Origin: Duganella sp. 1411
GTDB taxonomy: Bacteria > Pseudomonadota > Gammaproteobacteria > Burkholderiales > Burkholderiaceae_D
Assembly: GCF_017833525.1 (NCBI RefSeq)
Contig: NZ_JAFICD010000002.1
Span: 930,001 to 994,000, forward strand
Reading direction: 5' to 3'
DNA: 64,000 bases
Notes under the pieces: generated by a model
Told to the model about the DNA's origin: nothing
Seen by the model: only the letters and a program-made list of their open reading frames with translations
Databases searched by the model: none
In this document: positions 9,483 through 45,608 of the stretch, piece after piece
Numbering within the stretch: position 1 is the first letter of the stretch
Layout: the number at the start of each line of letters is the position of its first letter
Program-made: the position numbers and the translations under genes

Positions 9483-9507
9483 AAAAAAAAGGAGGCGCAT
9501 GGCCTCC
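9483..9507 (-). terminator. Rho-independent terminator of rpoD
   Basis: Read on the minus strand: GGAGGC stem, 5-nt loop, GCCTCC, then eight T. It lies 23 bases after the rpoD stop codon. Confidence 0.9.
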
Positions 9508-9529
9508 CTTCCGTTTTCCCGCTTGACGC

Positions 9530-12019
9530 TTAGTTTTGCGTCAGGAACGTCTTCAGCTTGTCCGAACGCGACGGCTGGCGCAGCTTGCTCATCGCCTTCG
9601 CTTCGATCTGGCGTATCCGCTCGCGCGTGACGTCGAATTGTTTGCCCACCTCTTCCAAGGTGTGGTCGTTCGACATCTCGACGCCGTAACGCATGCGCAG
9701 CACTTTCGCTTCGCGCGGGGTCAGCGAGTCCAGCACTTCCTTGATGACGTTGCGCATCGACGCGTGCAGCGCGGCGTCCAGCGGTGCCAGGGTGGTGTTG
9801 TCCTCGATGAAGTCGCCCAGCTGCGAATCGCCGTCCTCGCCCATCGGCGTTTCCATCGAGATCGGCTCTTTGGCGATCTTCATGATTTCGCGCACTTTGT
9901 TTTCCGGCATTTCCATCTTGACCGCCAGGGTCGCCAGGTCCGGCTCGCTGCCCGTTTCCTGCATGATCTGGCGCGAGATGCGGTTCATCTTGTTGATCGT
10001 TTCGATCATGTGCACCGGCACGCGGATGGTGCGGGCCATGTCGGCGATCGAACGGGTGATGGCCTGACGAATCCACCACGTCGCGTACGTCGAGAACTTG
10101 TAGCCGCGACGGTATTCGAACTTGTCGACCGCCTTGAGCAGACCGATGTTGCCTTCCTGGATCAGATCGAGGAACTGCAAGCCGCGGTTGATGTACTTCT
10201 TGGCGATCGAAATCACCAGACGCAAGTTGGCGACCGTCATTTCACGCTTGGCCTGGCGCGCGCGTTTTTCGCCGGCGGCCATCTGCTTGTTGATCTTGCG
10301 CAGGTCGGCCAGCGGCAGCGCCACGCGGGCCTGCAGGTCGATCATCTTCTTTTGCAGCTCTTTGACGGCTGGTACGTTGCGGCCCAGGATGGCGCTGTAC
10401 GGGTAGGCGGAATCGACCTCGCCGTCGACCCAGTCCAGGTCCGTCTCGTTGCCCGGGAACACCTTGATGAAGTGGGCGCGCGGCATGCCGCATTTGTTCA
10501 CGCACAGTTCCAGCACGGCGCGCTCGATGTGGCGCACTTCTTCCATCTGGCCGCGCAAGGTGTCGCACAGCTTTTCGACGACCTTGGCGGTGAAGCGGAT
10601 GCCCAGCAGCTCGGCCGAGATGGCTTCCTGCGCGGCGACGTACGCCTTCGAACCGTAACCGCCGGCGGCCTTGCGCATCTTGTCGTACTGGGTCGAGATG
10701 ACGTCGAACTTTTCCAGCGCGGCTTTTTTCAGCTGCGCCAGTTGCTCGGTCGAGAAGCCGGCCGCGCCGCCGTTGGCGTCGCCGTCTTCTTCCTCGACTT
10801 CTTCTTCCTCTTCCTCGTCGTCGTCCGACGGCGCGGCCGGCGCGGCCGCGACGGCCGGCGCGTTGTTGGCCTCGTTCAGGTCGACGAAGCCGTCCACCAC
10901 TTCATCGACCTTGAGCTCGTCCGCTTCGATCTTGCGCGCCAGCGCGACGATCTCGGCGATCGTGGTCGGGCAGGCGGAGATGGCCTGGATCATGTCCTTC
11001 AGGCCGCCCTCGATACGCTTGGCGATCTCGATCTCGCCTTCGCGCGTCAGCAGCGCCACGGCGCCCATCTCGCGCATGTACATGCGCACCGGGTCGGTGG
11101 TGCGGCCGAAGTCGGAGTCGACCGTCGACAGCGCGGTCGCGGCGGCCGCTTCCACTTCGTCGTCGGAGGTGACGGTGGCCACGCTGTCGGTCAGCAGCAG
11201 CGATTCGGCGTCCGGGGCGCGCTCGTAGATGGCGATGCCCATGTCGTTGAAGGTGGCGATGATGCCTTCGATCGCCTCCGGGTCGACGATGTTTTCCGGC
11301 AGCTGGTCGTTGATCTCGGCGTAGGTCAGGAAGCCGCGCTCCTTGCCCATGTTGATCAGGTTCTTGATCTGGGTGCGGCGGCGCTCGAGCTCCTCGGCGG
11401 TGCTCTTCGAATCGATGCCCAGCATGTCGGCGGCGCCGCCCTTGGCCTTGCGCTCGCGCGCCTTCGACACGGCCTTCAGTTCGGCGCGCTCGACGGCGTT
11501 CAACGCCGCCACTTCATCGTTTTCCGGCGTGAACTCGGACGGCTTGCGGCCGCGGCGGCCCGGCACCTTGACGCTCGGCAGCAGATAGCCGGAGGTGTCG
11601 ATCGACGCCAGGGTGGCGGCGTCGGTGACCTGGCTGACGGCCGGGCCGGCGGTGACGATGGTGACCGGCGCCGGATCAGCGGCGACCTTGACGGCCTTGA
11701 CCAGCTTGGACTTCGGCGCGACCTTGACCACCACCGTGTCGGCGACGGGCTCGTCGGCCGCGACGGCGCCGGAGATGGCGCCCTTGCGCGCCACCTTGAC
11801 GGTCTTGAGCGGCGACTCGAGCGCCACCTGCGCCTCGGCCTGGGCCGCCTCGGCGGCGGCGCTCAGGCGCGTTTTTTTCTTGACTACCGTTACTTTGCTC
11901 GCTGCCTCTTGCGCATTATCGATCACATAGGATAGAGTCGTCTTTGGCACCACCAGCGGCGCGGAGCTGGTGCGGGCGGCCTTGACGGACAACGTTAAAG
12001 TTTTCGGCGTTTTTGTCAT
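9530..12019 (-). CDS. rpoD: Primary sigma factor RpoD (sigma-70)
   Basis: Housekeeping sigma subunit of RNA polymerase. Seen in 829 residues: a Lys/Ala-rich extension of about 200 residues; region 1.1 ([20 protein letters not shown]); the region 1.2 promoter-proximal part ([11 protein letters not shown]); a non-conserved region with an acidic run near [17 protein letters not shown]; region 2 ([30 protein letters not shown]); region 3; region 4 ([28 protein letters not shown]). Start at ATG 12019, preceded by GAGAG at a normal spacing; an ATG 45 bases upstream gives an unconvincing leader. dnaG, the usual upstream neighbour in many relatives, is not here. Confidence 0.98.
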
Positions 12020-32671: not shown

Positions 32672-33385
32672 ATGCCCACACCTAAAATCAACCTCTCGCG
32701 CCGGACGCTGCTGATGGCGACCGCCGCCGCCGTTCCGCTCGTGTCCGCCCCGCTGTACCGCGCCCGCGCCGCCGGCCTCGAGGGCGTCGAGCTGCAGCGC
32801 TACCAGCCGCTGTTCTTTTCCGCCGCCGAGTGGCGCTTCGTCATGGCCGCCTGCGACCGCCTGATCCCCGCCGAGGGCAAGGGCCCCGGCGCGCTCGAGA
32901 CCAACGTCCCCGTCTTTATCGACCAGCAATTGCACGCCGGCCTCGGCGCCGACGTCTACATGCAGGGGCCGCACAAGAACGATGCCGCCTCCACGCTGGG
33001 CTTCCAGCACGACCACACGCCGCAACAGATGTATCGCCTCGGCATCAAGTTGGCCGAGCAATACAGCCAGCAAGTCCACAAGAAGTCGTTCGAGCAACTG
33101 GCGCCGGCCGAGCGCGACGCCCTCCTCGCCGCGCTGGAAAAGAACACCGCCGATTTCGCCGCCCTGGGCGAGCCGTCGCTGAAGGCGTCGCAATTCTTCG
33201 GCCAGCTGCTCGACGACACCAAGAACGGCTACCTGGCCGACCCCATGTACGGCGGCAACAAGGATATGAAGGCCTGGGTCGCCATCGGCTTTCCCGGCGC
33301 GCGCGCGGCCTTCACCGAGTGGGTCGACGTGCACGATGTCAAATATCCGCTGGGGCCGGTGAGCCTGAGCGGCAAACGCGCCTGA
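32672..33385 (+). CDS. Gluconate 2-dehydrogenase subunit 3 family protein
   Basis: Small subunit that escorts and anchors the flavoprotein of membrane dehydrogenases. The Tat-type signal (SRRTLLMATAAAVPLVSA) fits export of a folded complex. The body carries RFVMAACDRLIPAEGKGPGA and LLDDTKNGYLADPMYGGNKDM, typical of the family. 237 residues. First of three genes (subunit 3, GMC flavoprotein, triheme cytochrome) and 32 bases before the second. Confidence 0.9.
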   Translation: MPTPKINLSRRTLLMATAAAVPLVSAPLYRARAAGLEGVELQRYQPLFFSAAEWRFVMAACDRLIPAEGKGPGALETNVPVFIDQQLHAGLGADVYMQGPHKNDAASTLGFQHDHTPQQMYRLGIKLAEQYSQQVHKKSFEQLAPAERDALLAALEKNTADFAALGEPSLKASQFFGQLLDDTKNGYLADPMYGGNKDMKAWVAIGFPGARAAFTEWVDVHDVKYPLGPVSLSGKRA

Positions 33386-33416
33386 CCGGCCCTCCTCCTT
33401 ATTCTTCAGGTACTTT

Positions 33417-35186
33417 ATGCAAACCATCACTAACGACGAGGTCGACGTCGTCATCGTCGGCCTCGGCTGGGCCGGCTCCATCATGGCCATCGAACTGGCC
33501 AGGGAGGGCTTGAAGGTGCGCGCGCTCGAGCGCGGCCCCGATCGTCCGCCGGAAGACTTCGCCTATCCGAAACCGGCCGACCAATACGCCTACGCGATCC
33601 GCAACAAGGTGTTCGTGACGCCGCGCGACGCCGCCCTGACGGTGCGCTACAACACGGCCGAGACGGCGCTGCCGACGCGCAAATGGGGCGCCTTCGTGCC
33701 CGGCAATGGCGTCGGCGGCTCCGGCCTGCACTGGACGGGCGTGCTGATCCGCCCGACCCAGACCGACATCAAACTCAAGACCTACGCCGACCAGGCCTAC
33801 AAGCGCGGCGTGCTCGATCCCGACATGCGCATCAAAGACTTTCCATTCACGTGGCAGGAGATCGAGCCGCACATGGACAAGTTCGACAAGATCTGCGGCC
33901 TGTCCGGCACCACCGGCAACCTGGGCGGCCAGATCCAGCCGGGCGGCGATCCGTTCGAGGGCCCGCGCTCGAGCCCGTTCCCACTGCCGGCGCTGCACGA
34001 CACGCTCAACAGCTCGCTGTTCGCGGCCGCCGCCAAAAAACTGGGCTACCACCCCTTCCCCAACCCGTCGGCCAACGTCACCCAGCCGTGGACCAATCCG
34101 TACGGCGCCCAGCTGGCCCCGTGCAACTACTGCGGCTTTTGCAGCAAGTATCCGTGCCTGAATTATTCGAAGGCGTCGCCGCAGACCACCATCCTCGACG
34201 TGGTCAAGCGCCTGCCCAACTTCGACTACAAGACCGGCGCCAACGTGATCCGCGTCGACCTGCACGCCGACAAGAAGACCGCCAAAGGCGTCACCTACAT
34301 CGACGGCCAGCAGCGCGAGGTGTTCCAGCCGGCCAAGATCGTCATCCTCAGCAGCTTCCAGTTCGCCAACGTGCGCCTGATGCTGTTGTCGGGCATCGGC
34401 GAGCCGTACAACCCCGTCACCGAGCAAGGCATGATCGGGCGCAACTACGCCTTCCTCAGCGTCGGCGACGCCACCTTGTTTTTCAAGGACAAGCATTTCA
34501 ATCCGTTCGCCACGGCCGGCGCCACCGGCGAGATGTTCAACGACATTTCGCCGGGCAACTTCGACGGCCCCGGCCTCGGCTTCATCGGCGGCGCCAAGAT
34601 CCACAGCTCGCAGGCCAGCGGCGCGCCGATCGGCACCGCGCTGCCGCCCGGCACGCCGACCTGGGGCAAGGGCTGGAAGGACGGCATGGTCGACTGGTAC
34701 GGGCGCGCGATGAAGGTCAGCATCTCGACCAGCTGCATGGCCTATCGCGGCCACTACCTGGACCTGGACCCGAACTACAAGGACCCGTGGGGCCAGCCGC
34801 TGCTGCGCATGACGTTCGACTGGCGCCAGAACGAGCTCAAGCTGCAACGCCACCTGCGCGGCATCGTGCTCGACATCGCCAAGGAACTCAAGCCGGACGC
34901 CATGTCGGAGAATTTCCTCGGACTCGACTCGCACTGGGACATCACCAAATACGTCTCCACCCACAACGTCGGCGGCGCCATCATAGGCACCTCGCCGCGC
35001 GATTCGGCGCTCAACCGCTACACCCAGTCGTGGGACGTGCACAACGTCTTCGTCCCGGGCGGCAACGCCTTCCCGCAGAACTTCCAGGCCAATCCTACCG
35101 CGCTGATCGGCGCCATCACGCTGTTCGCGGCCGAGGCGATCAAACAGCAATACCTGAAAAATCCCGGACCGCTGGTGCAGGCATGA
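33417..35186 (+). CDS. GMC-family FAD-dependent dehydrogenase (sugar/alcohol/gluconate type)
   Basis: Catalytic subunit that oxidises a sugar, polyol or sugar acid in the periplasm, passing electrons to the cytochrome. 589 residues. FAD-binding DVVIVGLGWAGSIMAIELA near the start, GNGVGGSGLHWTG, and the C-terminal GMC signature around STHNVGGAIIGTSPRDSALN and FPQNFQANPT. A cysteine cluster, Cys236, Cys239, Cys242 and Cys247 (CNYCGFCSKYPC), matches the position of the iron-sulfur ligands in FAD-glucose and fructose dehydrogenases. No signal peptide of its own; it is probably carried out with the Tat subunit. Substrate not determinable. Confidence 0.9.
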   Translation: MQTITNDEVDVVIVGLGWAGSIMAIELAREGLKVRALERGPDRPPEDFAYPKPADQYAYAIRNKVFVTPRDAALTVRYNTAETALPTRKWGAFVPGNGVGGSGLHWTGVLIRPTQTDIKLKTYADQAYKRGVLDPDMRIKDFPFTWQEIEPHMDKFDKICGLSGTTGNLGGQIQPGGDPFEGPRSSPFPLPALHDTLNSSLFAAAAKKLGYHPFPNPSANVTQPWTNPYGAQLAPCNYCGFCSKYPCLNYSKASPQTTILDVVKRLPNFDYKTGANVIRVDLHADKKTAKGVTYIDGQQREVFQPAKIVILSSFQFANVRLMLLSGIGEPYNPVTEQGMIGRNYAFLSVGDATLFFKDKHFNPFATAGATGEMFNDISPGNFDGPGLGFIGGAKIHSSQASGAPIGTALPPGTPTWGKGWKDGMVDWYGRAMKVSISTSCMAYRGHYLDLDPNYKDPWGQPLLRMTFDWRQNELKLQRHLRGIVLDIAKELKPDAMSENFLGLDSHWDITKYVSTHNVGGAIIGTSPRDSALNRYTQSWDVHNVFVPGGNAFPQNFQANPTALIGAITLFAAEAIKQQYLKNPGPLVQA

Positions 35187-36469
35187 GCAAGCACGCGATG
35201 AAAACACTGACCTGCCTTCTGACCGCCGCCGTCATCGGACTCGGCATCGCCGGCCACGCGGCCGCCGCCGCACCGGCCGCGCCGGGCCAGACGCTGGCGC
35301 AACGCGGCGCCTACCTGGCGCGCGTGGGCGATTGCGTCGCCTGCCACAGCGCGCCGGGCAAGCCCGCCTTCGCCGGCGGCCTGCCCATCGACAGCGGCCT
35401 CGGCGTCCTCTACTCGACCAACATCACGCCCGACAAGGAACACGGCATCGGCAAGTACACGGAGCAGCAGTTCGCCGACGCCGTGCGCAAGGGCGTGCGC
35501 GCCGACGGCACCCACCTGTACCCCGCCATGCCGTACACCAGCTACGCCAAGGTCAGCGACGAGGACATCAAGGCGCTGTACGCCTACTTCCAGACCGGCG
35601 TTCAAGCCTCGGCCTACGCCCCGCCGGAGTCGAAGATGGGCTTCCCGTTCAACCAGCGCTGGGGCATGGTGTTCTGGAACTTCTTCTTCGCCGACAACAA
35701 ACCGTTCAAGCCGCAGCCGGGCTGGAGCCCGCAGGTGCGCAACGGCGCCTACCTGGTCGAGGGCCTGGGCCATTGCAGCACCTGCCACACGCCGCGCGGC
35801 TTCGCCATCAACGAAAAAGCCAGCAACAGCGGCGAGGCCAAGTTCCTCGCCGGCGGCGAGCTCAATGGCTGGCCGGTGCCGTCGCTGCGCGGCCTGCCGC
35901 GCTGGGACCTGGCGGCCATCGTCGACTACCTGCAAACGGGACGCAACAAGAACTCGGCGGTGGCCGGCGAGATGACCGCCGTGGTCCAGCACAGCACCTC
36001 GCAAATGACCACCGCCGACCTCAACGACATCGCCGCGTACCTGAAGGCGCTGCCGCCGGCGCCGGCGCGCGAGGCGGCCGTCAAGCCGCAGGGGCGCGAG
36101 GCCACGGTCAAGAAACTGTCGGCCGCCGTCGACCTGACGTTGGGCGAGCGCTTGTACCTGGATAATTGCTCGGCGTGCCACTTCGTCACCGGCAAGGGCG
36201 CGACGCGGGTGTTCCCCGAGCTCGACGGCGCCAGCGTGGTCAACGCGGAGAACCCGACCGCGCTGCTGCACGTGATGCTGGCGGGCGCGCGCACGCCGTC
36301 GACCGACAAGGCGCCGTCGGTGCTGGTGATGCCGGGCTTCGGCAAGCGGCTCAGCGACGGCGAGGCGGCCGCGCTGGCGAGCTTCCTGCGTCAGGGCTGG
36401 GGTAATACGGCGGCGGCGGTGTCGGAGAAGGATGTCGCCAAGGTGCGCGCCAGGATCGACGCAAAATAA
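35183..36469 (+). CDS. Triheme cytochrome c subunit of the GMC dehydrogenase
   Basis: Transfers electrons from the flavoprotein to ubiquinone. Signal peptide to about residue 30 (AGHAAAAA), then three haem motifs: CVACH (51-55), CSTCH (198-202) and CSACH (329-333), with STNITPD, LYPAMPYTSY and FLRQGWGN. 428 residues. The ATG overlaps the flavoprotein TGA (ATGA), so the two are translationally coupled. A family A repeat starts 9 bases after the stop. Confidence 0.93.
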   Translation: MSKHAMKTLTCLLTAAVIGLGIAGHAAAAAPAAPGQTLAQRGAYLARVGDCVACHSAPGKPAFAGGLPIDSGLGVLYSTNITPDKEHGIGKYTEQQFADAVRKGVRADGTHLYPAMPYTSYAKVSDEDIKALYAYFQTGVQASAYAPPESKMGFPFNQRWGMVFWNFFFADNKPFKPQPGWSPQVRNGAYLVEGLGHCSTCHTPRGFAINEKASNSGEAKFLAGGELNGWPVPSLRGLPRWDLAAIVDYLQTGRNKNSAVAGEMTAVVQHSTSQMTTADLNDIAAYLKALPPAPAREAAVKPQGREATVKKLSAAVDLTLGERLYLDNCSACHFVTGKGATRVFPELDGASVVNAENPTALLHVMLAGARTPSTDKAPSVLVMPGFGKRLSDGEAAALASFLRQGWGNTAAAVSEKDVAKVRARIDAK

Positions 36470-36591: not shown

Positions 36592-37536
36592 TTAGTGCAG
36601 CAGCCACATCCACGCGCTCAACGTGAAGAACGAGGCCACCATGCAAATCAACAGCGTCGTGGCGCTGCGGTCGGCCTCGCCATACGCCTGCGCGACGATC
36701 GGATAGATGCTTAACATCGGCATCGCCGCCATCAGCAACGCCGCCGCGCGCAGCGCCGGTTCCATCGGCGCCACGCCCGCCAGCGGCAGCACGGACAGGA
36801 TCAGCAGCACGGCCAGCGGGTGCCCCACCAGCTTGCCCACCACCACCGGCAGCACCCGCTGCCAGCCGCTGCTCAGCGACAGCCCGACCAGCGTGCCGCC
36901 GATGGCGAACAGCGACACCCCGCCGCTGGCTTGCGAGAACAAGGTGACGCTGCGCAGCACCGGCTGCGGCAGCTGCAGCTCCGCCAGACTGACAACCAGG
37001 CCGGCCGTCACCGCCAGCACCAGCGGGTTGCGCGCCAGCCGCTTGAGCGATTGCCCGACCACGTGGCGCCACGAGCCGCCCGCGCCGCGCGCGCTTTCCG
37101 CCATCGCCAGCAGCAGCGGCAACATGACCAGGTTCTCGACCATGACGTTCAGCGCCAGCGCCACGCCGGCCACCGGCGCGACCAGCAACAGCAGGATCGG
37201 AAACCCCATGAAACTGCTGTTCGAACACGACACGCCCATCGCCAGGAAAGTGCTGCGCATGCGGTTCAAGCCGGCCAGCCGGCGGGCGGTCAGGTAGGCG
37301 ATCGTCATCATCAGCAACGAGCCTCCCAGATAGGCCAGCAGGTAGGCCGGGTGCAGCACCTCGCGGATATGGCGCTGGGCCAGCGCGTTGAAGATCAGCG
37401 CCGGCAGCGCGAAGTTGAGCACGAACTTGCCGAACACCCGCATGTCGGTCCGCTCGAACACGCCGAAGCGGGTGGCGAGGTAGCCGGCGAGCACAATGAT
37501 GTAGATCGGACTGGTGATGGCGAGGATATCAAGCAT
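36592..37536 (-). CDS. AEC-family (auxin efflux carrier-like) transporter
   Basis: Inner-membrane secondary transporter. 314 residues with about ten TM helices; the N-terminus PIYIIVLAGYLATRFGVF and the central FLAMGVSCSNSSFMGFPILL and C-terminal MPMLSIYPIVAQAYGE blocks are typical of the AEC family. Bacterial members export or exchange malate and other organic acids (family knowledge). It follows the ROK regulator gene by 9 bases on the same strand. Confidence 0.88.
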   Translation of the reverse strand: MLDILAITSPIYIIVLAGYLATRFGVFERTDMRVFGKFVLNFALPALIFNALAQRHIREVLHPAYLLAYLGGSLLMMTIAYLTARRLAGLNRMRSTFLAMGVSCSNSSFMGFPILLLLVAPVAGVALALNVMVENLVMLPLLLAMAESARGAGGSWRHVVGQSLKRLARNPLVLAVTAGLVVSLAELQLPQPVLRSVTLFSQASGGVSLFAIGGTLVGLSLSSGWQRVLPVVVGKLVGHPLAVLLILSVLPLAGVAPMEPALRAAALLMAAMPMLSIYPIVAQAYGEADRSATTLLICMVASFFTLSAWMWLLH

Positions 37537-37545
37537 GGACGGGCG

Positions 37546-38673
37546 TTATTCTTCGGTATAAAAATGTGCCCACAGCGGCACCAGGGCCGCGCCCAGCGCC
37601 TGCGTGTGCTGTCCGCCCTCGGCCAGCACCAGCCGGGGCCTCGGCGGCGCGACGCCGTAGCGGTGCTCGCGGTCCCAGAAGCTGGCGTTGTCGATCAGCG
37701 CCCGCCCCAGCGCCGGCGGCAGCTCGCCGCCGAAGACGATGGCGTCCGGATCGAACAGGCCGGCCAGCACGTTGACGATCTGGTCGAGCGCCGGCTTGAC
37801 CCCTTCCATCCATGCCGCCACGCCCGGCCAGGCCGGGTCGAACGACTGCCTCAGCTGCGCGATCGTGGCGACCGGCACCGATAAGGCCTGCAGCGCTTCG
37901 AGCAGATAGCGCAGCGCCGGCCGGCTGGCCGGATTGACACCCGGGACGCTGAAGGTGATCTCGCCGGCGTTGCCGTGGCGGCCCGTGTACGGCTTGCCGT
38001 CGAGGATGACGCCGGAGCCGAAGCCATAGCCGAAATCGAGGTAGCAAAAACTGCGCGCCCAGCGGCCGACGCCAAGCAGGTTCTCGCCGATGGCGGCGGC
38101 GGTGGCGTTGTTCTGGATCGTCACCGGCAAGCCCAGCGCCGCGCTGACGACCGGCTCGAGATCGACCAGCGACCAGTCCCGCAGCGGCTCGGGGGCGTTG
38201 ACCTGGCGTCCGCCGGCGATGAAAAACGCCGGAATCGACAAGCCCACGCCGATCACGTCGCCGCGCGCGACGCCGTGCTCCTCTAACATGCCGTCGATCA
38301 TCGCCGCCAGCGCGCGCAAGGTGGCGTCGCGGTCGAGCGCGACGCTGTCGATGCGCCGCTGCGCCGTGACCTGGCAGGCCAGGTCGGCCAGGCAGACGTC
38401 GACGCTGTCGGTGCCCAGCGCCACGCCGACCGCGTAGGCGGCCTGCGGGCGCAGCGCCAGCGTGATGCTCGGCTGGCCGCGCCCGCCCTTGGGCGGCGCG
38501 CCGGCCACCAGCAGCCCGCGCGCCAGCAACTGGTCGGTCATGCGGTGCACCCAGGGCTGCGTCAGTCCGGTTTCGCCGGCCAGCGCGGCGCGCTGCATGG
38601 CGCCGTTGACGCGCACCAGATTCAGGATCTTGCGCTCGTTTTGCAACAGCGTTTTGGGATGCGGATCGGTCAT
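37546..38673 (-). CDS. ROK-family transcriptional regulator
   Basis: Sugar-type repressor: winged helix (ILNLVRVNGAMQRAALAGET, GLTQPWVHRMTDQLLARG) followed by a ROK ATPase-like fold (GVALGTDSVDVCLADLA, GVGLSIPAFF, IQNNATAAAIGENLLG, GNAGEITF). 375 residues. The zinc motif CxCGxxGCxE that normally follows G-x-A-G-E is absent, so ligand sensing may differ from NagC/XylR. First gene of a pair with the AEC transporter and divergent from the TonB receptor cluster; control of both is likely. Confidence 0.88.
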   Translation of the reverse strand: MTDPHPKTLLQNERKILNLVRVNGAMQRAALAGETGLTQPWVHRMTDQLLARGLLVAGAPPKGGRGQPSITLALRPQAAYAVGVALGTDSVDVCLADLACQVTAQRRIDSVALDRDATLRALAAMIDGMLEEHGVARGDVIGVGLSIPAFFIAGGRQVNAPEPLRDWSLVDLEPVVSAALGLPVTIQNNATAAAIGENLLGVGRWARSFCYLDFGYGFGSGVILDGKPYTGRHGNAGEITFSVPGVNPASRPALRYLLEALQALSVPVATIAQLRQSFDPAWPGVAAWMEGVKPALDQIVNVLAGLFDPDAIVFGGELPPALGRALIDNASFWDREHRYGVAPPRPRLVLAEGGQHTQALGAALVPLWAHFYTEE

Positions 38674-38827
38674 GCGGCCAGCGCGGGATGTGAGAAGGAA
38701 GGCAAGAGTTTATTCCTGAACGAATCCGCCATCGTACTCGAAGCACCGCCGTTTGTCATGGCGCGGCCCCACCGCCGGCGCGCCGCCGCGCCGAAATAAT
38801 TTGCGTGTTTTTGTCATCAAGAAGTAA

Positions 38828-38842
38828 TATGCGTCACGCATA
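38828..38842. promoter_or_regulatory. Perfect 15-bp palindrome upstream of the TonB receptor gene
   Basis: TATGCGT-C-ACGCATA, inside an AT-rich stretch (GTAATATGCG...TAATAATATTTTATAC) that probably holds the receptor promoter, 29 bases before its ATG. A candidate operator for the divergent ROK regulator. The 38674-38870 gap holds no gene. Confidence 0.5.
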
Positions 38843-38870
38843 ATAATATTTTATACACCGGAGACACCGC

Positions 38871-41414
38871 ATGAAACCTCGCCAGGCCCGCCGCCCCCGG
38901 GCAACCCCGCTCTATTACGCCGCCCTGCTGACGTGCGCCGCGCCGCTGGCCGCCGCCGCGCCGGCCGACCCCGCCGCCCCGGCGGACACGCCGGCGGCGG
39001 CCGCCGACCAGGCCGACGGCATGCAGTCGGTCGTCGTCACGGGCACCGCCAAGGGGCGTACCAAGCTCAGCGCGCCGTTCGCGATCAGCACCTTCAGCGA
39101 GGCGCAACTGCAGCGCGACGCCTCCGGCAGCACGGTCGACATGCTCAAGCGCGTGCCCGGCCTGTCGGTCGAGGCCTCCGGCGGCCAGGGCGGCGGCCAG
39201 AACATCTACGTGCGCGGACTGCCGGCCGGCGGCTGGTTCTACGTCCAGCTGCAGCACGACGGCCTGACCATGTTCGACGAGCCGCAGGAATCGTTCTTCA
39301 ACATCGACACGCTGTACCGGCTCGACCTGATGACCGAGCGGGTCGAGGTGGTGCGCGGCGGCACCTCGCCGATCTACGCCAACAACGCCCCCGGCGCCAC
39401 CGTCAACATCATCGGCCGCAAGGGCAGCGACACGCCCGAGGGCACCGTGCGCGCCACCGTCGGCAGCCACGGCCTGACCCGCTACGACGGTTATGTGGCC
39501 GGCCCCGTCAACGACCGCCTCAACTACGCCATCGGCGGCTTCTACCGGCGCGACAAGGGCTGGCGCGAGCCCGGCTACACGGCCGACAAGGGTGGCCAAC
39601 TGAGCGCCGCCGCCACGCTCAAACTCGACGGCGGCCACCTCGACGTCGAGGCCAAGGTGCTCAACGACCGCACCGCCTTTTATACGGCGATCCCGCTGTT
39701 CGACCCGCGCACGCCGTCGCTGTCGCTCGACGGCCAGCTCGACGCCGGCACCGGCACGCTCAACTCGTCGGACTTCCGCCACTACCAGGTGCGCACGGTC
39801 GACAACGGCGTCGCCGGCAAGGTCGACCGCGACCTGGCCGACGGCATCCACACCGACCTCAAGCAATTTAGCGTCAACTTCGAGCGGCAGCTCGGCGACG
39901 GCTGGAGCGTGGCCAACCGCTTCGGCGCCGTGCACGCCGACGTCAGCTACGACGCCGTGTTCTCCGGCGCCAGCCCGCAGGACGCCAACGGCTATCTGGC
40001 CGGCAAGCTGGCCGCCGCCCGCGCCGGTTTCGGCGCCTCGGTCGACCGCCTCGGCTACGTGCTGGCCAACCAGCGCGGCGCCAACGGCCAGCGCGTGGTG
40101 TTCGATCCGGCCGGCCTCGGCGGCCTGGTGCTGGAGAGCCAGCTCAACGCCGTCGACACCGGCCTCAGGACGATCACCGACGACCTGCGCCTGGGCAAGA
40201 AGATCGATACGCCGCTGCTGGGCAAGCACGAGCTCACGGCCGGCCTGTACTACAGCCACTTCGACTTCACGCAGCGCCGCCTGCCCAACGTCATCCTGAC
40301 CACGGTCAGCTCGCAGGCCAAGGCGCTCGACGTGCTGGCCTACGACCAGGGCGGCGCGGTGGTCGGCGCCGTCACCGAGGACGGCTTCGTCCGCTACGGC
40401 AACGGCGCGGCGGCCGGCCACGCCACCGGCACCTACCTCTCGCCCTACCTGGCCGACGCCTGGCAGGTGCTGCCGCAACTGACCTTGGACGCCGGCCTGC
40501 GCCGCACCCTCTTCACCGACCGCGGCGACAACGCCGGCACCGTGACGCAGAACCAGCAGGACCCCGCCACCCTGGCCGACAACAATGTCGGCGGCCTGAG
40601 CGGCGCGACCACCGCCAAGCGCGAAACGCTGGGCGGCAACTCGTGGACCCTGGGCGCGGCCTACAAGCCGGCCGACGCGCAACAGCTGTTCGCCCGCCTG
40701 ACCAAGGCGGTGCGCTTCCCGCGCCTGCAAAACGTCTACCTGCTGCAAACCACGCCGGTGACCGACATCCGCCAGGCCGAGGCCGGCTGGCGCGTGGCCG
40801 GGCCGCTGTCGTTCTCGGCGATCGGCTTCTACAGCCACTTCAACCGGCTCTCGCTCAACGGGCTGGTGCTCAACCAGGCCACCGGCAACCTGGAAACCTT
40901 GCCGCTGATCGGCGAGACCGAAACCAGGGGCCTGGAGCTGGAGGCGAACTGGCGCGCCTCGCCGCGCTTCTCGGTCAACGGCAACCTGACGTTGCAGCAG
41001 CCGAAAACCAAGCGCCTGGCCAACCCGGCGACCGGCTCGTCGGGCGCGGCCTACGACGGCAAGCAGCTGACGCAGATACCCAAACTGCTGGCCAGCGTGC
41101 AGCCGGTCTGGAACCTCGACGTCGCCGGCCAGTTCGTCGAACTGAGCGCGACGGCCAGCCGCATCGGCGAGCGCTACGTCGACTACGCCAACAGCACCGC
41201 CCTGCCCGCCTACACCACGGTCGACCTGGGCGCGCGCATCCCGGTCGGCGCGTGGGAATGGCAGTTGTCGGTCAAGAACGCCGGCAACTCGGCCGGCCTG
41301 ACCGAAGGCAATCCGCGCACCGACAGCCTGAGCGGCCAGGGAAGCGCCACCGCCATCTACGGCCGCCCGGTGTTCGCGCGCCAATACCAGGCGTCGCTGG
41401 CCTACCGCTGGTAG
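38871..41414 (+). CDS. TonB-dependent outer-membrane receptor
   Basis: Gated importer for a large or scarce substrate. 847 residues: signal peptide (to about 30), TonB box region near SVVVTGTAKG, plug domain (about 55-170: MLKRVPGLSVEASGGQGGGQ, YVRGLPAGG, RVEVVRGGTSPIYANNAPG, ATVNIIGRKG), then the 22-strand barrel ending in YQASLAYRW with the usual terminal aromatic. No N-terminal signalling (STN) extension. The substrate is suggested by the two phosphodiesterase-like genes downstream, not by the receptor itself. A strong terminator follows. Confidence 0.92.
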   Translation: MKPRQARRPRATPLYYAALLTCAAPLAAAAPADPAAPADTPAAAADQADGMQSVVVTGTAKGRTKLSAPFAISTFSEAQLQRDASGSTVDMLKRVPGLSVEASGGQGGGQNIYVRGLPAGGWFYVQLQHDGLTMFDEPQESFFNIDTLYRLDLMTERVEVVRGGTSPIYANNAPGATVNIIGRKGSDTPEGTVRATVGSHGLTRYDGYVAGPVNDRLNYAIGGFYRRDKGWREPGYTADKGGQLSAAATLKLDGGHLDVEAKVLNDRTAFYTAIPLFDPRTPSLSLDGQLDAGTGTLNSSDFRHYQVRTVDNGVAGKVDRDLADGIHTDLKQFSVNFERQLGDGWSVANRFGAVHADVSYDAVFSGASPQDANGYLAGKLAAARAGFGASVDRLGYVLANQRGANGQRVVFDPAGLGGLVLESQLNAVDTGLRTITDDLRLGKKIDTPLLGKHELTAGLYYSHFDFTQRRLPNVILTTVSSQAKALDVLAYDQGGAVVGAVTEDGFVRYGNGAAAGHATGTYLSPYLADAWQVLPQLTLDAGLRRTLFTDRGDNAGTVTQNQQDPATLADNNVGGLSGATTAKRETLGGNSWTLGAAYKPADAQQLFARLTKAVRFPRLQNVYLLQTTPVTDIRQAEAGWRVAGPLSFSAIGFYSHFNRLSLNGLVLNQATGNLETLPLIGETETRGLELEANWRASPRFSVNGNLTLQQPKTKRLANPATGSSGAAYDGKQLTQIPKLLASVQPVWNLDVAGQFVELSATASRIGERYVDYANSTALPAYTTVDLGARIPVGAWEWQLSVKNAGNSAGLTEGNPRTDSLSGQGSATAIYGRPVFARQYQASLAYRW

Positions 41415-41436
41415 CGCGCCGTCACCACGCCCCACG

Positions 41437-41462
41437 GACCGGGTGCGCCCGGTCGCTTTTTT
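41437..41462 (+). terminator. Intrinsic terminator after the TonB receptor gene
   Basis: GACCGGG, TGCG loop, CCCGGTC, then six T (41457-41462). It lies only 17 bases before the next start codon, so it either separates the units or lets part of the transcription through, giving more receptor than downstream enzyme. Confidence 0.8.
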
Positions 41463-41478
41463 AAGAAAGTATGGTTTT

Positions 41479-42270
41479 ATGAATGTGATCAAACCCCGCC
41501 GCGGCGCCATGCGCCTGATGTTGCAAACCGGCTTGCTGGCCATCGCCGAGCCGGCGCTGGCGCAACCGCCGGCGCACGCCGCCGCCCTGCCCGGCGCGGC
41601 CGACGAGGCGCCCAAATTCCACGCCGACGGCACGCCGGCGCACTGGCCGGGCAACACGATCATCTGCCACATCGACCGGCGCAGCGACACCTTCATGGCC
41701 ATGCTCGACCTGCACACGGTGCTGATGCGCAGCGGCCTGACGCACCGCGTGGTGCCGCTGCCGCCGGCCAGCTACCACACGACGGTGTTCGAGGGCATCT
41801 CGTATCCGCAGCGCGCGCGCCGCTTTCCGCGCGACCTGCCGCGCGACGCCAGCGAGGCAGCCTGCGACGCCGCTTTTTTGAAGAAGCTGCAACAGTTCGA
41901 CCTCGGCTGCCGGCTGCCGCTGCGCATGCGTCCGAGCAAACTGGAACTGCAGACCAATCCCTACAACATCCAGCTGGAGCCGGTCGACGCCGCCGAGAAC
42001 CACAAGATCCGGGGGCTGCGCGACCGCCTGGCCGCGCTGCTGCAATTCCGCGACGACGAGCACGACAGCTACCGCTTCCACACCACGCTCAATTATTTCT
42101 CGTCGCCGCTGAACGACGCCGAGCAACAGCAATTCGCGCGGTTGCGCCAGCGCATGCTCACCAGCTTCATCGCCCGCTCGCCGCTGATCGAACTGCAGGC
42201 GCCGGAGTTCTGCTACTTCGACGACATGTTCGAATTCCGCCCGCAACTGCGGCTACACAACAAGTCCTGA
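41479..42270 (+). CDS. DUF1868-type 2H phosphoesterase-like protein, exported
   Basis: Probably a phosphodiesterase with the LigT/2H fold. 263 residues; signal peptide to about residue 28 (PALAQ). Two H-x-T motifs are present: His100-x-Thr102 (SYHTTVFEG) and His201-x-Thr203 (RFHTTLNYF), spaced as in 2H enzymes. KFHADGTPAHWPGNTIICHI and a C-terminal FYFDDMFEFRP-like block (FCYFDDMFEFRP) match DUF1868 proteins. I chose ATG 41479 since upstream ATG 41443 lies in the terminator hairpin. Second gene of the receptor cluster. Confidence 0.78.
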   Translation: MNVIKPRRGAMRLMLQTGLLAIAEPALAQPPAHAAALPGAADEAPKFHADGTPAHWPGNTIICHIDRRSDTFMAMLDLHTVLMRSGLTHRVVPLPPASYHTTVFEGISYPQRARRFPRDLPRDASEAACDAAFLKKLQQFDLGCRLPLRMRPSKLELQTNPYNIQLEPVDAAENHKIRGLRDRLAALLQFRDDEHDSYRFHTTLNYFSSPLNDAEQQQFARLRQRMLTSFIARSPLIELQAPEFCYFDDMFEFRPQLRLHNKS

Positions 42271-42347
42271 GCCGGCAGGACTGGCGCGCCCCGGCGCGCG
42301 CACCACCCGGCACGCACGTCCCCACTTCACTTCAAGGAGAACCACCC

Positions 42348-43514
42348 GTGACACCTATCTTCTCGACCGCCAAACGCCTGAGCGCCGCGCTGCTCGGACT
42401 GGGCCTGGTCGGCGCCGCCGCGCCGGCGCTGGCCAACAGCTGGAATCCCGAGCACATCATGCTCGCGCTAAAGTTCCCCTACTCGCATAATGCCGGGGGC
42501 AACGTGGTCACCATCGCCCACCGCGGCCTGGTCGGCCCCGGCTGCCCGGAAAATTCGGCCTGCGCCATCACCAACGCCGTCAACAACAATATCGAAGCGA
42601 TCGAACTGGACGTCAAGGAATCGTCCAGCGGCACGCCATGGCTGTTCCACGACCAGAACGCCGGCCGCCTGGTCAGCCACAGCGGCGGCCTCGACATCTA
42701 CACCGGCGCCGGCTGGAACCCCGACATCCGCACCATGAACGACCAGCAGCTGAACGACTCGCGCCTCATGGACCACGACTTCAAGGTCAGCAATTACAAC
42801 GCGCTGCTGGTTTCGACCGCGCTCAACAACGTCAAGTTCGGCGCCAACCATGTCGTCATCGTATTCGACATCAAGACGGCGGACGCCGTCTCGAAAATCG
42901 CCGACATGGTCAACACGCGCGGCATGCAAAACCAGGTGGTGCTCAAGTTCAGCTCCTCGCTGTTCGCCCACAATCCGGCCGACATCATCAAGTTCACCAA
43001 GGGCGTGGCGTTCGCGCCGACCGTCTACGCCGGCGATATGGACCAGATCATCGACAGCGGCTACGCCGGTAACATGACGAGCTGCGCTGACCAGGGCGCG
43101 GACAAGTACCAGTGCCGCATCGAGGCCTGGGCCGATCAGGCGACCAGGGTGCAGAACTACGCGTGGCTGGAAGTGGGCAACAAGCAAGCGTTCAACGGCG
43201 GCGACCCCACGCGTTTCCTGGTCAACCACGTGAGCGGGCTGAAACGCGCCATGGGCGGCTTCAGCCCGGTCCCCGAGTACCGCGCCAACGCGGGTGACGG
43301 CGCCTACTACATCCGCAGCAACGGCACCTGCTGCGCCCGACTGTCGGACTACCTGTCCAACTCGAAGTACTTCGGCCGCGAAACCCAGGACGACCGCTGG
43401 CAGGTGACGGAACTGTTGAAGGGTGGTTTCACCAGCATCATCAGTGACAATCCGTTTGCCGTCAGCAATGCCGCCATCAAGCAGGGCCGCCGTAACACCC
43501 AGCTGTATCAATAA
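42348..43514 (+). CDS. Exported GDPD-like phosphodiesterase
   Basis: TIM-barrel enzyme of the glycerophosphodiester phosphodiesterase / phosphatidylinositol phospholipase type. Signal peptide to about residue 28 (PALANS). Catalytic pattern: His58-Arg59 (IAHRGLVGPGCPENS), Glu86 and Asp88 (IELDVK) and His101 (LFHDQNAGR). A long insert with YIRSNGTCCARLSDYLS and ISDNPF near the end is less usual. 388 residues. GTG start at 42348 with AAGGAG 9 bases upstream. Third gene of the cluster. Confidence 0.85.
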   Translation: MTPIFSTAKRLSAALLGLGLVGAAAPALANSWNPEHIMLALKFPYSHNAGGNVVTIAHRGLVGPGCPENSACAITNAVNNNIEAIELDVKESSSGTPWLFHDQNAGRLVSHSGGLDIYTGAGWNPDIRTMNDQQLNDSRLMDHDFKVSNYNALLVSTALNNVKFGANHVVIVFDIKTADAVSKIADMVNTRGMQNQVVLKFSSSLFAHNPADIIKFTKGVAFAPTVYAGDMDQIIDSGYAGNMTSCADQGADKYQCRIEAWADQATRVQNYAWLEVGNKQAFNGGDPTRFLVNHVSGLKRAMGGFSPVPEYRANAGDGAYYIRSNGTCCARLSDYLSNSKYFGRETQDDRWQVTELLKGGFTSIISDNPFAVSNAAIKQGRRNTQLYQ

Positions 43515-43537
43515 GCGACCGGCCCCGGAGGAAGACC

Positions 43538-45004
43538 ATGCCACTGAACCGATATCTGGCGCTCCCGACCATCGCCGTGCTGCTCGGCGCGGCGCTGTGG
43601 GCGGCCGGCGCGGGCGAAGGCGAGCGCGCCGCCACGCCGCAACAGGGCTCTGTGGCGGGCGCTTCCTCCGGCGGGCTGCTGTCCTACCTCGCCGCCGCCG
43701 GACCTGTCGCGCCGCCGCCCCTGGCCTCCGCCGATGCGTTGCGCCGGCAGGCGGCGCGACTGCCCGCCGATTTCCAGGCCGACGTCCTGTTGCGGCTGGC
43801 CGCCGGGCCGGAGGCGCGCGATGCCGCCGACCTGATCCTGCAAGCGTACCGGCTGGCGCCGCAGGCGGCGCGGCCGTTGCCGGGCCGGGTCGCGCGCGCC
43901 TGGGCCGGCGGCGACGACGTCGTCCTGCCGCCGCAAACCGCCGGGCTCGACCAGCTATCGTTGCAAATCCGCGCCGTGCGCGCCATGCTGGCGATCGCGC
44001 CGGAGCGCATCGGCATGCTGTCGTCGCCGTTCCCCGGACCGCGCGCGGCCGACTGCGACGCCGACTATGTCGACGACCCGGGCGCGGTGTACGAGCTGGC
44101 GTCGGCGACCTTGCCCGCCCAGGCCTACGCGCGCGCCGCGTTCGCGCTGAAGGTCGTCAGCCGTGCCAGGACGGAAATGGACCTGGCGCCGGCCGTCCAA
44201 TTCATCACCGCGTTGCCGCCGCTGGCGCCGCGCGACGAGGCCGCGCTCGCGCAGGGCTTGAGCGCGCTGTTCGCGCGAGCGCAGGGCAACGACCCCGGTT
44301 TCGCCGCCACCGGGCCGGGCCTCGCTTCCGGCATGGAGGCGCTGCTGGCCCGCTACAACGGCATGCCGGACGCGCGCCGCGAAGTGCAAGCGGCGTTCCG
44401 CAACTATGTCGCCACCCATCTGGCGGCGGCGCGCTGCCCTGCCAGCCTTGGCGGCGAGTACAGGCAGCTTGAGCGCGGCTTCACCGCCGGCGACAACGCT
44501 GACGCGGCCGACGCGCCGGATACGCCCGACCTCGCGCCGCGCGCGGCCACTGCGCCGGCCCCGTACGCCGCCGCGGCCGACGCCATCCGTCACGCCGCCG
44601 CGACGACGATGGCACGGCTGCACGCAGGCCCGGACGCGTCCCCGTCCGAGCCGCCGGACGCCGACGATTTGCTGGCCACCCTGGACAGCGCGGGCGTCAT
44701 GTCCGCCGCCGCCGGCGACGCCGGCGGCCGTCTACAACGCATCGCCGTGCATGCGCTGCTGCGCTACCTGGAATACGCGCCGCCGGGCGCGCGGCGCGAC
44801 GGCGCGTTCGCCCGGCTGCAAGCCTGGCTTGCCGACGGCGCCGGCGCGCGCGACCATGACCGCAGGCTGGCCGACCTGCGCGCGCTGGCCGACGGCGCGC
44901 GGCGCTGGCCGGACGCCGACCGGCGTCTGCGGCAACTGGCGGCCAGCCGCGACTTGGTGATCAGTGTCTACGCCCAGCTCGTGCTGAGCAAGCAATTCCC
45001 GTAA
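43538..45004 (+). CDS. Unknown helical protein in the receptor/phosphodiesterase cluster
   Basis: Not recognised. 488 residues, about a quarter alanine, nearly all predicted helix. A hydrophobic N-terminus (PTIAVLLGAALWAAGAGEG) looks like a signal peptide or anchor, so it probably faces the periplasm. Two halves are joined by an Ala/Asp/Pro linker (about 318-350). LGGEYRQLERGFTAG and LQRIAVHALLRYLEYAP are distinctive stretches. GGAGGAAG precedes the ATG, which is 24 bases after the GDPD stop, so it is surely in the same operon. Confidence 0.7.
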   Translation: MPLNRYLALPTIAVLLGAALWAAGAGEGERAATPQQGSVAGASSGGLLSYLAAAGPVAPPPLASADALRRQAARLPADFQADVLLRLAAGPEARDAADLILQAYRLAPQAARPLPGRVARAWAGGDDVVLPPQTAGLDQLSLQIRAVRAMLAIAPERIGMLSSPFPGPRAADCDADYVDDPGAVYELASATLPAQAYARAAFALKVVSRARTEMDLAPAVQFITALPPLAPRDEAALAQGLSALFARAQGNDPGFAATGPGLASGMEALLARYNGMPDARREVQAAFRNYVATHLAAARCPASLGGEYRQLERGFTAGDNADAADAPDTPDLAPRAATAPAPYAAAADAIRHAAATTMARLHAGPDASPSEPPDADDLLATLDSAGVMSAAAGDAGGRLQRIAVHALLRYLEYAPPGARRDGAFARLQAWLADGAGARDHDRRLADLRALADGARRWPDADRRLRQLAASRDLVISVYAQLVLSKQFP

Positions 45005-45098
45005 AACCGATCTCGCCGCGTCCGGCCGCCCGGGGCATCGCCAGCCCATCGCCCGGATGTGGTACATTCACGCCTCGAATCTCCTCCGCCGTCACGCC

Positions 45099-45608
45099 AT
45101 GTCCTCCCTGAAGTACCTCAGCGCCTATTCCGAGCAAACGCAGCAGCAAGTGACCGAGTTGCTGGCCAAGAACCAGCTAGGCGACGTGCTGCTCAAGCGT
45201 TACAAGAAACCGCACGACCTGCGCACCGACAAGGCGCTGTACCAGTACGTGCAAGGCTTGAAAGATGAGCATTTGCGCAACGCCGAGCCGATCAACAAGG
45301 TCGAGTACGACAGCAAGATCCACGTGATCAACCACGCGCTGGGCTTGCACACGTCGATCTCGCGCGTCCAGGGCGGCAAGCTCAAGGCCAAGCACGAGAT
45401 CCGCGTCGCCACCATGTTCAAGGAGGTGCCGCTGGAATTCTTGCGCATGATCGCCGTGCACGAGCTGGCGCACGTGAAGGAAAAGCAGCACGACAAGGCG
45501 TTCTACAAGCTGTGCACCTACATGGAACCGAACTACCACCAGTTCGAGTTCGACCTGCGGCTGTACCTGACCCACCTCGACAGCGGCGCCGGCCGGCTGT
45601 GGGCATAA
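45099..45608 (+). CDS. YgjP-like zinc metallopeptidase domain protein (M48/DUF45)
   Basis: Cytosolic gluzincin-like protein. Zinc motif His121-Glu122-x-x-His125 (AVHELAHVKEKQHDKAFY), with the typical second-ligand region after it, and C-terminal NYHQFEFDLRLYL. 169 residues. The ATG at 45099 matches the family N-terminus (MSSLKYLSAYSEQTQQQV); an ATG at 45057 would add 14 residues. No signal peptide. Monocistronic, convergent with the MFS gene. Substrate unknown. Confidence 0.85.
   Translation: MSSLKYLSAYSEQTQQQVTELLAKNQLGDVLLKRYKKPHDLRTDKALYQYVQGLKDEHLRNAEPINKVEYDSKIHVINHALGLHTSISRVQGGKLKAKHEIRVATMFKEVPLEFLRMIAVHELAHVKEKQHDKAFYKLCTYMEPNYHQFEFDLRLYLTHLDSGAGRLWA

Follow-up and report, generated by a model that had tools for sequence, protein, structure and literature searches.

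The window, a 64,000-nucleotide stretch of Duganella DNA, contains a locus of six genes. All six are open reading frames with the coordinates and order assigned to them in a preliminary description of the sequence, and five are placed in families by profile models. On the minus strand are an AEC-family inner-membrane carrier (36592–37536; PF03547, 92.1 bits against a cut-off of 25.7) and, 9 bp from it, a ROK-family transcriptional regulator comprising a winged helix and a ROK domain (37546–38673; PF00480, 82.7 bits against 22.9). Divergent from these, the plus strand encodes, in order, an 847-residue TonB-dependent receptor (TBDR; 38871–41414) with the Pfam plug and barrel, a 263-residue 2H phosphoesterase (41479–42270, alternative start 41443; DUF1868/PF08975, 92.8 bits against 21), a 388-residue GDPD (42348–43514; PF03009, 35.4 bits against 23.6), and an alanine-rich protein of 488 residues (P488; 43538–45004) that is probably exported or anchored.

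The two enzymes belong to unrelated phosphodiesterase folds, as had been proposed, and both carry the expected residues. In the 2H protein, the motifs H100-T-T and H201-T-T (numbered on the 263-residue form) are 101 residues apart, and both catalytic histidines are invariant in a 15-row alignment. This protein matches PDB entry 2fsq (Atu0111; E = 1.7e-18) and shares the fold family and both HxT motifs with the DUF1868 family (named in no paper of the literature searched), but differs in being embedded in a receptor locus and in its probable export, suggested by a hydrophobic N-terminus preceded by K-P-R-R. Its gene more likely begins at the ATG at 41479, preceded by AAGAAAG, because the GTG at 41443 falls within a terminator-like hairpin followed by T6 (41437–41454, plus strand), found by consensus scan and in the sequence. 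The 64-nt gap between the receptor and 2H genes folds overall no better than shuffled sequences (z −0.26); the hairpin may serve in attenuation. Its position between these two genes counts against the reading of the locus preferred below.

The GDPD is a member of its family by profile, by the HR...E.D...H residues, and by fold. The residues H58-R59, E86, D88, H101, and D174-x-K176 are all present and occupy invariant columns in alignment A2, and the predicted structure (pLDDT 89.2) resembles experimentally solved GDPDs, most closely 3i10 from Bacteroides thetaiotaomicron (E = 2.0e-15). While fold and catalytic residues are those of PF03009, the protein belongs to a subfamily of its own, marked in its C-terminal third by an invariant CC and D-x-R that it has in common with proteins of Xanthomonas, Dickeya, Trinickia, and Paraburkholderia. 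A signal-like N-terminus indicates that it is probably exported. Elsewhere in the same genome, there are only two other PF03009 matches.

The description of P488 as a protein of no known family is borne out by searches of Pfam and NCBIfam profiles, neither of which gave a match at E ≤ 0.1. Its proposed helical nature agrees with a mostly helical prediction, although the AlphaFold model is weak (mean pLDDT 68, from 6 sequences), and a fold search of the PDB with it gave nothing at E ≤ 0.001. Scoring of 7996 candidates recovered five relatives besides P488 itself.

The conserved core of the locus is the set of ROK, TBDR, and 2H genes, whose copies in the nearest locus, L083, are 67, 72, and 63% identical, respectively. 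The regulator is 38% identical to the ROK of L082, 28–31% to ROKs adjoining receptors linked to DUF218, and 50–53% to those of six 2H/ABC loci (L026, L027, L036, L037, L039, and L041), whose receptors BLAST relates to the window TBDR weakly or not at all. Between the divergent genes, a 24-bp block, GTAATATGCGTCACGCATAATAAT (38824–38847, plus strand), contains the 15-bp palindrome TATGCGTCACGCATA (38828–38842) and ends 23 bp upstream of the receptor ATG. The block is identical in the same ROK-TBDR gap of L083, the rest of which is less conserved. A resembling block, TATTCGTCACGAATA, lies 5' of the L026 TBDR, and none was seen 5' of the remaining ROK/ABC loci examined. We regard the palindromic block as a candidate ROK operator. 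The AEC carrier may provide an uptake step, and its belonging to the unit is uncertain: no gene of L083 bears the AEC label, an MFS gene follows the 2H gene there, and other loci carry MFS or ABC importers instead, so that the carrier does not hold as a fixed component.

Adjacency of receptor and 2H genes recurs in other genomes. The TBDR is directly upstream of the 2H gene in 20 of 58 loci and within 8 kb in 32, while 26 (some in short stretches, and including loci adjoining a Rieske oxygenase) have no TBDR within 8 kb. Many 2H genes adjoin TBDRs, TonB/ExbBD, importers (sugar-type SBP_bac_1 ABC or MFS), and regulators often of the sugar-type ROK or LacI families; recurring neighbors also include a phosphatase of the inositol-monophosphatase family, and phospholipase-C-type enzymes (PF04185) occur in L026, L041, L085, and L087 by profile or similarity (Pfam-checked for L026 and L085). 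The 2H protein lacks a signal peptide in all eight loci with an ABC importer in the same operon, whereas, where the 2H gene is linked to a TBDR and no ABC importer is present, its N-terminus is signal-like in 22 of 23 loci.

The suggestion that the four plus-strand genes form one conserved unit is not supported. At E ≤ 1e-10 for the window GDPD and E ≤ 1e-6 for P488, relatives of each were found in only 1 of 74 genomes of the genus, the window's own, and neither gene is present in the L083 stretch examined; both could therefore be passengers. GDPDs of differing subfamilies are nonetheless found near 2H genes in 10 of 58 stretches. By genome, a GDPD lies within 10 kb of the 2H gene in 7 of 33, where GDPD density predicts 0.30 (P = 1.7e-8 on the assumption of independent genomes, although four of the seven are from one family). 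In an eighth genome (G806, L051), a GDPD frame interrupted by stop codons lies ∼5 kb from the 2H gene. Contiguous same-strand triples occur as TBDR-2H-GDPD in the window and in Duganella sp. Leaf126 (L006), whose GDPD is of a different subfamily (29% identity over 223 residues), and as TBDR-GDPD-2H in G1032 (L078).

To our knowledge, natural sugar phosphodiesters are known as bacterial food from two plant-pathogen systems, those for agrocinopine and xanthosan, and the genus of the window is not one we know as a pathogen group. According to its description, the xan cluster of Xanthomonas oryzae pv. oryzicola comprises xanR (ROK), xanT (TBDR), and xanP (2H), with the GDPD-derived avrBs2 adjacent; XanT and XanP were experimentally proved to import xanthosan, a sugar phosphodiester, and hydrolyze it to Gal-1-P, and the HxT/S histidines of XanP, H99 and H204, are 105 residues apart (PMC12807533). 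Since xanT-xanP-avrBs2, as so described, already sets a 2H enzyme and a GDPD-derived enzyme at one TBDR, the preliminary view that two phosphodiesterase folds beside one receptor are a novel combination does not stand (PMC12807533). The window shares with that account of xan a ROK gene in the cluster, neighboring TBDR and 2H genes, a homologous 2H enzyme with two HxT/S motifs, a GDPD-superfamily gene, and, by analogy, a logic of sugar phosphodiester import followed by hydrolysis.

The components themselves differ. For homology with XanP, the Xanthomonas-type 2H proteins L069–L073 were used in place of XanP itself (WP_014501370.1). These derive from five genomes of the order of Dyella, and their HxT-HxS spacing is 105 residues in all five, as in XanP, compared with 101 in the window protein, which is 29–33% identical to them and falls in a separate clade. 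The 3 kb upstream of this 2H type, examined in three of the five, holds a TBDR (L074), directly 5', in G1102, where a GDPD-domain frame of 718 residues lies ∼5 kb off, and no TBDR in G1054 or G1072. L074 matches TIGR01782 (592.9 bits against a cut-off of 310); the window TBDR has no BLAST match to it at E ≤ 1e-3, and TIGR01782 is absent among the 25 family matches listed for this receptor, which forms its own clade outside the XanT-type family. Nor does an AvrBs2-family, GDPD-derived synthetase stand alongside: the window GDPD, short, probably exported, and with the hydrolase residue set, reaches 35.7 bits over only 124 residues against the 716-position AvrBs2 effector model, with its cut-off of 1000. 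The window also adds the AEC carrier and P488. By these comparisons, the locus probably functions like xan yet is not xan, and since both the receptor and the 2H clade differ, its substrate may differ from xanthosan.

The acc system of Agrobacterium, as described, likewise imports a sugar phosphodiester, agrocinopine, and cleaves it with a phosphodiesterase, an analogous scheme, but uses a periplasmic binding protein, an ABC importer, and the phosphatase AccG, where the window has a TBDR and an AEC carrier (PMC4526662). Neither an ABC importer with a binding protein nor a sugar-phosphate phosphatase was found among the window genes from 36592 to 45608, and the 2H/ABC/Inositol_P loci (L027, L030, L036, L039, and L041) are closer than the window to acc as so described.

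From these lines of evidence, we consider it fairly likely that the locus is a xan-like module for sugar-phosphodiester scavenging in a soil-type bacterium. The TBDR would bring into the periplasm a sugar phosphodiester that porins would not admit because of its size or charge. There, the exported GDPD and 2H enzymes would cleave it to a sugar or its phosphate, possibly one after the other, with the GDPD trimming the diester and the 2H enzyme opening an internal or cyclic sugar phosphodiester, a cut modeled on the action of XanP on xanthosan. The product would enter the cytoplasm through an inner-membrane carrier (AEC in the window, MFS or ABC in relatives), and the ROK protein, on sensing the product sugar, would leave the palindrome and free the receptor promoter. 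Of the import and degradation of a phosphodiester originally proposed, the sugar-phosphodiester class is thus upheld by the xan precedent, the 2H neighborhoods, and the recurrence of GDPDs in other lineages, while the novelty, the four-gene unit, and the fixed AEC carrier are not. The glycerophospho-sugar, phosphoinositol, and teichoic-type fragments originally offered as examples are conjectural substrates.

With slightly more confidence than doubt, we further propose that DUF1868 2H enzymes are central to general, modular nutrient loci for sugar phosphodiesters in Alpha-, Beta-, and Gammaproteobacteria, of which xanthosan feeding is one instance. Receptors (from at least two TBDR clades lacking mutual BLAST similarity), importers (AEC, MFS, ABC), and partner enzymes (GDPD, phospholipase C, inositol-phosphatase family) would be swapped around a 2H/regulator core, the 2H enzyme being cytoplasmic where an ABC importer takes up the intact diester and exported otherwise. 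The window would be a free-living version, in which a secreted GDPD of its own releases or trims the substrate and no plant is forced to make it. If so, sugar phosphodiesters would be a wider nutrient class for soil and plant-associated bacteria, used without an injected effector; the recurring locus would give the DUF1868 family a function; and the identity of the substrate could be tested on a small set of purified proteins and a single regulator.

A less likely arrangement, though the strongest competitor, is that two independent modules adjoin, one a sugar-phosphodiester unit of ROK, TBDR, and 2H genes, the other a separately arrived GDPD-P488 pair with an unrelated envelope function. The restriction of both protein types to one genome of the genus set fits this, as does TBDR-2H without a GDPD in the stretches of L083, L005, and L021. 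P488 has the highest GC content of the six genes (0.758; window gene mean, 0.674). Moreover, the P488 relative P0056 and the GDPD relative P0019 both have a longest contig of 46,155 bases and a JGI source, and the pair may thus travel together. Separate arrival, however, would not lead one to expect GDPDs of other subfamilies to recur, as they do, immediately next to the TBDR and 2H genes of L006 and L078 and in the vicinity of 2H genes in several lineages.

Scavenging of phosphate under starvation, from glycerophosphodiesters or phospholipid head groups and with the sugar not the food, is improbable. Glycerophosphodiesters are the classical substrates of GDPDs, and PF04185 enzymes accompany some 2H genes, but the sugar-type regulators and importers around 2H genes argue against it, and Pfam recognizes no phosphatase in the window unit. 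A little less probable again is a true xan system that takes up and cuts xanthosan scavenged from what Xanthomonas makes in plants. It would accord with the gene content, as reported for xan (PMC12807533), although receptor family, 2H clade, and GDPD all depart from that system, and receptors 50% identical to L074 adjoin other 2H genes of the genus (L017 and L018), which are better xanthosan candidates. The 2H family is also found in many genera that we take to be plant-associated.

That the receptor is a siderophore or cofactor receptor with unrelated neighbors is very improbable: its best named model is the siderophore model TIGR01783, but at 129.4 bits, below the curated cut-off of 223.5, it does not group firmly with siderophore receptors. 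It is 50% identical to the receptor of L077 and 38–39% to those of L005, L006, and L021. Receptors of its clade precede a 2H gene (the window, L083, L005, L006, and L021) or, in 10 loci, one for a DUF218-type protein (checked with Pfam in one of the 10), several of these receptors with a divergent ROK gene.

All six genes placed at 36592-45004 by the preliminary description were recovered in this 7.63 Mb genome, and family models identify five of them: an AEC carrier and a ROK regulator on the minus strand and, on the plus strand, a TonB-dependent receptor (TBDR), a 2H phosphoesterase (PF08975/DUF1868) and a GDPD. The sixth, a plus-strand 488-residue protein (P488) said to belong to no known family, was likewise assigned to none by family searches. 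The plus-strand genes are closely spaced (64 bp from the TBDR to the 2H ATG, 77 bp from 2H to GDPD, 23 bp from GDPD to P488, and 52 bp from P488 to a YgjP-like gene on the same strand). Despite these short gaps, co-transcription of the whole row is not assured, because a consensus scan places a terminator-like hairpin followed by T6 in the TBDR-2H gap (41437-41454, plus strand). This hairpin could possibly act by attenuation, which would hold receptor output above enzyme output; in the nearest orthologous locus (L083), the same scan detected no terminator-like hairpin in the receptor-2H gap.

A precedent for this gene content is the xan cluster of Xanthomonas. According to its description (PMC12807533, December 2025), the TBDR XanT imports the cyclic dimeric galactose phosphodiester xanthosan, which the GDPD-derived synthetase AvrBs2 makes in plant cells, and the 2H enzyme XanP (motifs H99/T101 and H204/S206) hydrolyzes it; the cluster also includes a ROK gene, xanR. 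Judged by titles and opening abstract lines, this was the sole on-subject match found for TonB-dependent, ROK, phosphodiesterase and sugar phosphodiester literature, in a collection with most subscription-journal papers and bioRxiv preprints outside its scope; in the same collection, xanthosan is named in one paper from 2024 onward and DUF1868 in none, and no mention of XanT-XanP-like loci beyond Xanthomonas was found in the parts of PMC12807533 covered. Five 2H sequences from the order of Dyella (L069-L073), which we infer to come from Xanthomonas genomes, are 29-33% identical to the window 2H, and in all five the HxT and HxS motifs lie 105 residues apart, the same distance as in XanP. Genome G1102 has a TBDR (L074) immediately upstream of its 2H and, by coordinates only, a 718-aa GDPD-domain frame ∼5 kb away; in G1030, also by coordinates only, GDPD-domain frames of 1136 and 724 aa occur at 5 and 7.5 kb. 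In genomes G1054 and G1072, no TBDR was detected within 3 kb upstream of 2H and no comparably long GDPD frame genome-wide. The XanT-type receptor L074 belongs to TIGR01782 (592.9 bits), whereas the window receptor has no match to this model among the 25 families listed, and BLAST gives no match between the two. The 2H tree places the window in a five-member Oxalobacteraceae clade (100/100), separate from the Xanthomonas-type clade. Given the different receptor family and the separate 2H clade, the window locus is xan-like in logic and content, and is not a member of xan.

By analogy with xan, and considering the synteny, the TBDR would take up a phosphodiester, the putative substrate that the GDPD and 2H (both with catalytic residues and signal-like N-termini) would cleave in the periplasm, and the ROK protein would presumably act at a palindrome to control expression. 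The AEC carrier might, tentatively, bring the product into the cell. It also adjoins a gluconate 2-dehydrogenase-like set at 32672-36469 (subunit 3, a GMC flavoprotein and a cytochrome c, the last with three matched stretches), and may belong with these genes and not with the phosphodiester unit.

The window GDPD retains the hydrolase residues, its model has a pLDDT of 89.2, and the nearest solved folds are GDPDs; its 51 matches include named relatives from Duganella, Xanthomonas, Luteibacter, Dickeya, Pectobacterium, Trinickia and Paraburkholderia. An AvrBs2-type synthetase was rejected on a score of 35.7 bits versus a cut-off of 1000 and a signal-like N-terminus, as was a relative of the cyclizing sphingomyelinase-D/phospholipase-D branch, since the best 50 fold matches are ordinary GDPDs and none is so named. 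For P488, five matches besides itself were obtained from 7996 candidates scored, one of them from Xanthomonas. The records of a P488 relative (P0056) and a GDPD relative (P0019) give an equal length, 46,155 bases, for the longest contig, and these genes may therefore be neighbors there. The helical character ascribed to P488 agrees with its predicted structure, which is mostly helical, but the model is weak (pLDDT 68) and gave no fold match at E ≤ 0.001.

Conservation within the genus differs from gene to gene: among 74 genomes, TBDR relatives (E ≤ 1e-80) occur in 58 and 2H relatives (E ≤ 1e-6) in five, and the window type of GDPD (E ≤ 1e-10) and P488 (E ≤ 1e-6) were each found in one, the window's own. 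The remaining four genomes with 2H each have a TBDR immediately upstream of it, belonging to the window's receptor clade in L005 and L006, where the two genes as called overlap by a few bases, and to a different clade in L017 and L018. In L006 (Duganella sp. Leaf126), 2H is followed by a GDPD of another subfamily (29% over 223 aa relative to the window GDPD). Thus, when the four plus-strand genes were checked for the synteny raised in the preliminary description, the exact set turned up in no other locus, but the receptor-2H and receptor-2H-GDPD arrangements did. Ten other loci of the genus (L007-L016) have a receptor of the window's clade followed by a different protein family, identified as DUF218 from the one member tested (L009); the ROK gene is divergent from the receptor in L008, L009, L010, L012, and L013, and sugar-type importer genes are present in several. 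These loci are a sister locus type with a different envelope protein.

Of 392 genomes in the family, 13 carry PF08975, as do 9 of 299 in Dyella's order (G793). Named genomes yielded 47 2H loci, many of them from plant-associated groups (Dickeya, Pantoea, Pseudomonas of the syringae/viridiflava group, Trinickia, Paraburkholderia, and Methylobacterium). A set of 58 distinct loci was obtained by removing duplicates (L020, L022, L038, L040, L080, and L084) and setting aside short fragments (L068-L073), and was counted by six-frame profile matches because home-made gene calls missed genes in L030, L048, and L077. In this set, a TBDR lies directly upstream of 2H on the same strand (≤450 bp) in 20 loci and within 8 kb in 32. 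Class-wide searches of 369 genomes, a sample too thinly drawn for use, returned GDPD in one genome and 2H in two, the window's own being counted in both.

A GDPD occurs within the available stretch of 10 of the 58 loci. Comparison of PF03009 and 2H coordinates in 33 genomes of named loci places a GDPD at most 10 kb from 2H in seven of them (Duganella G780; Trinickia G784; Dyella G793, G794, and G796; Rhodanobacter G804; and Asticcacaulis G803). The chance expectation, from per-genome GDPD number and genome size, is 0.30 genomes (P = 1.7e-8 assuming independence, which the seven do not have: they fall in four families, one supplying four). The 33 genomes represent 33 of the 47 named loci; the 14 omitted (L020, L024, L040, L045, L054, L055, L057-L061, L063, L065, and L066) show no GDPD in their stretches, with L020 and L040, being duplicates, outside that count. 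PF03009 coordinates could fall inside the L023, L026, L041, and L046 stretches if on the same contig, and the sequence there is not GDPD; in G807, a fifth PF03009 place is 10.0 kb away if on the 2H contig. Genome G1032 has a contiguous TBDR-GDPD-2H row (L078) and a TBDR-2H pair (L079), and, elsewhere, a receptor sharing 50% identity with that of the window and immediately followed by a GDPD (L077, 10756-14101), with no 2H match in that 19-kb stretch. An eighth genome of the 33, Pseudomonas capsici (L051, G806), has a GDPD frame (∼4065-4598) interrupted by three stop codons ∼5 kb from 2H, possibly a decayed partner gene; it is outside the ten because the profile missed the broken frame, which was revealed by the genome's own ordinary GDPDs.

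A second layout, in Trinickia, Paraburkholderia, Caballeronia, Dyella, Rhodanobacter, and a Ralstonia MAG, places SBP_bac_1 and two permeases after 2H, in most cases with an ATPase and frequently with ROK and a phosphatase of the Inositol_P family (family labels checked against Pfam on a single member per cluster). Operon-like 2H/ABC rows are found in L026, L027, L030, L036, L037, L039, L041, and L049; TonB/ExbB/ExbD or a GH32-like gene is close by in several loci, and a phospholipase C is present in L026 and L041. In the ABC loci, 2H starts 14-24 residues before a conserved KF motif with no hydrophobic stretch (8/8), and 22 of 23 TBDR-linked enzymes have a hydrophobic, often twin-arginine-like N-terminus. 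These 23 combine a TBDR in the stretch with a readable KF motif and lack any SBP or permease label within 4 kb (rows without the motif, L042, L054, L055, L057-L061, L063, and L082, were omitted); by crude hydropathy, values ≥1.24 were taken as signal-like and ≤0.72 as not, with the dividing line set after the values were known, and L025 (0.89) is the single miss. L051 has both a divergent ABC and a signal; in L062 and L064, the ABC genes lie upstream and the starts are unclear. Export by itself does not mark receptor loci, because signal-like N-termini were also seen where TBDR and ABC genes are both absent (e.g., L028, L031, L032, L033, L045, L053, and L066). In the 2H tree, the branch that sets the ABC group apart has moderate support (73/81), so few independent events may underlie the compartment rule.

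L083, from another genus of the family (G220), is the best match to the window, with ROK, receptor, and 2H 67, 72, and 63% identical, respectively. An MFS gene follows this set, and neither GDPD nor P488 was found in the stretch. The ROK-receptor gaps of both loci contain an identical 24-bp block, GTAATATGCGTCACGCATAATAAT, and shorter common runs, including 13 bp around CATCGTACTCGAA. Within the block lies a 15-bp odd palindrome (38828-38842), ending 28 bp before the window's receptor ATG, which is a candidate ROK operator. Among the other ROK/ABC loci, a similar palindrome was found upstream in L026 only (ROK 53% identical; TATTCGTCACGAATA upstream of the receptor), a match that is not independent because the degenerate pattern was composed after sight of the L026 sequence. 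Six ABC-type 2H loci encode ROK proteins with 50-53% identity to that of the window despite receptors with little or no BLAST similarity, which points to a related inducer. More distant 2H-linked ROK proteins occur in L082 (38%), L049 (31%), and L081 (30%).

Other contexts were also observed. In Rhodobacteraceae-type loci (L054, L055, and L057-L060), a 2H relative has a Rieske oxygenase and a CbiX-like protein as neighbors, frequently together with an SDR, and no receptor is present (labels checked against Pfam on L058 only); this is another use of the family. In an Oxalobacteraceae genome (L086, G337), a 2H at 9023-9843 behind a XanT-like receptor is split over two frames, and may be broken or misassembled. 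The top match of the 2H profile search is a fungal protein with PF08975, from Mycena galopus (P0058).
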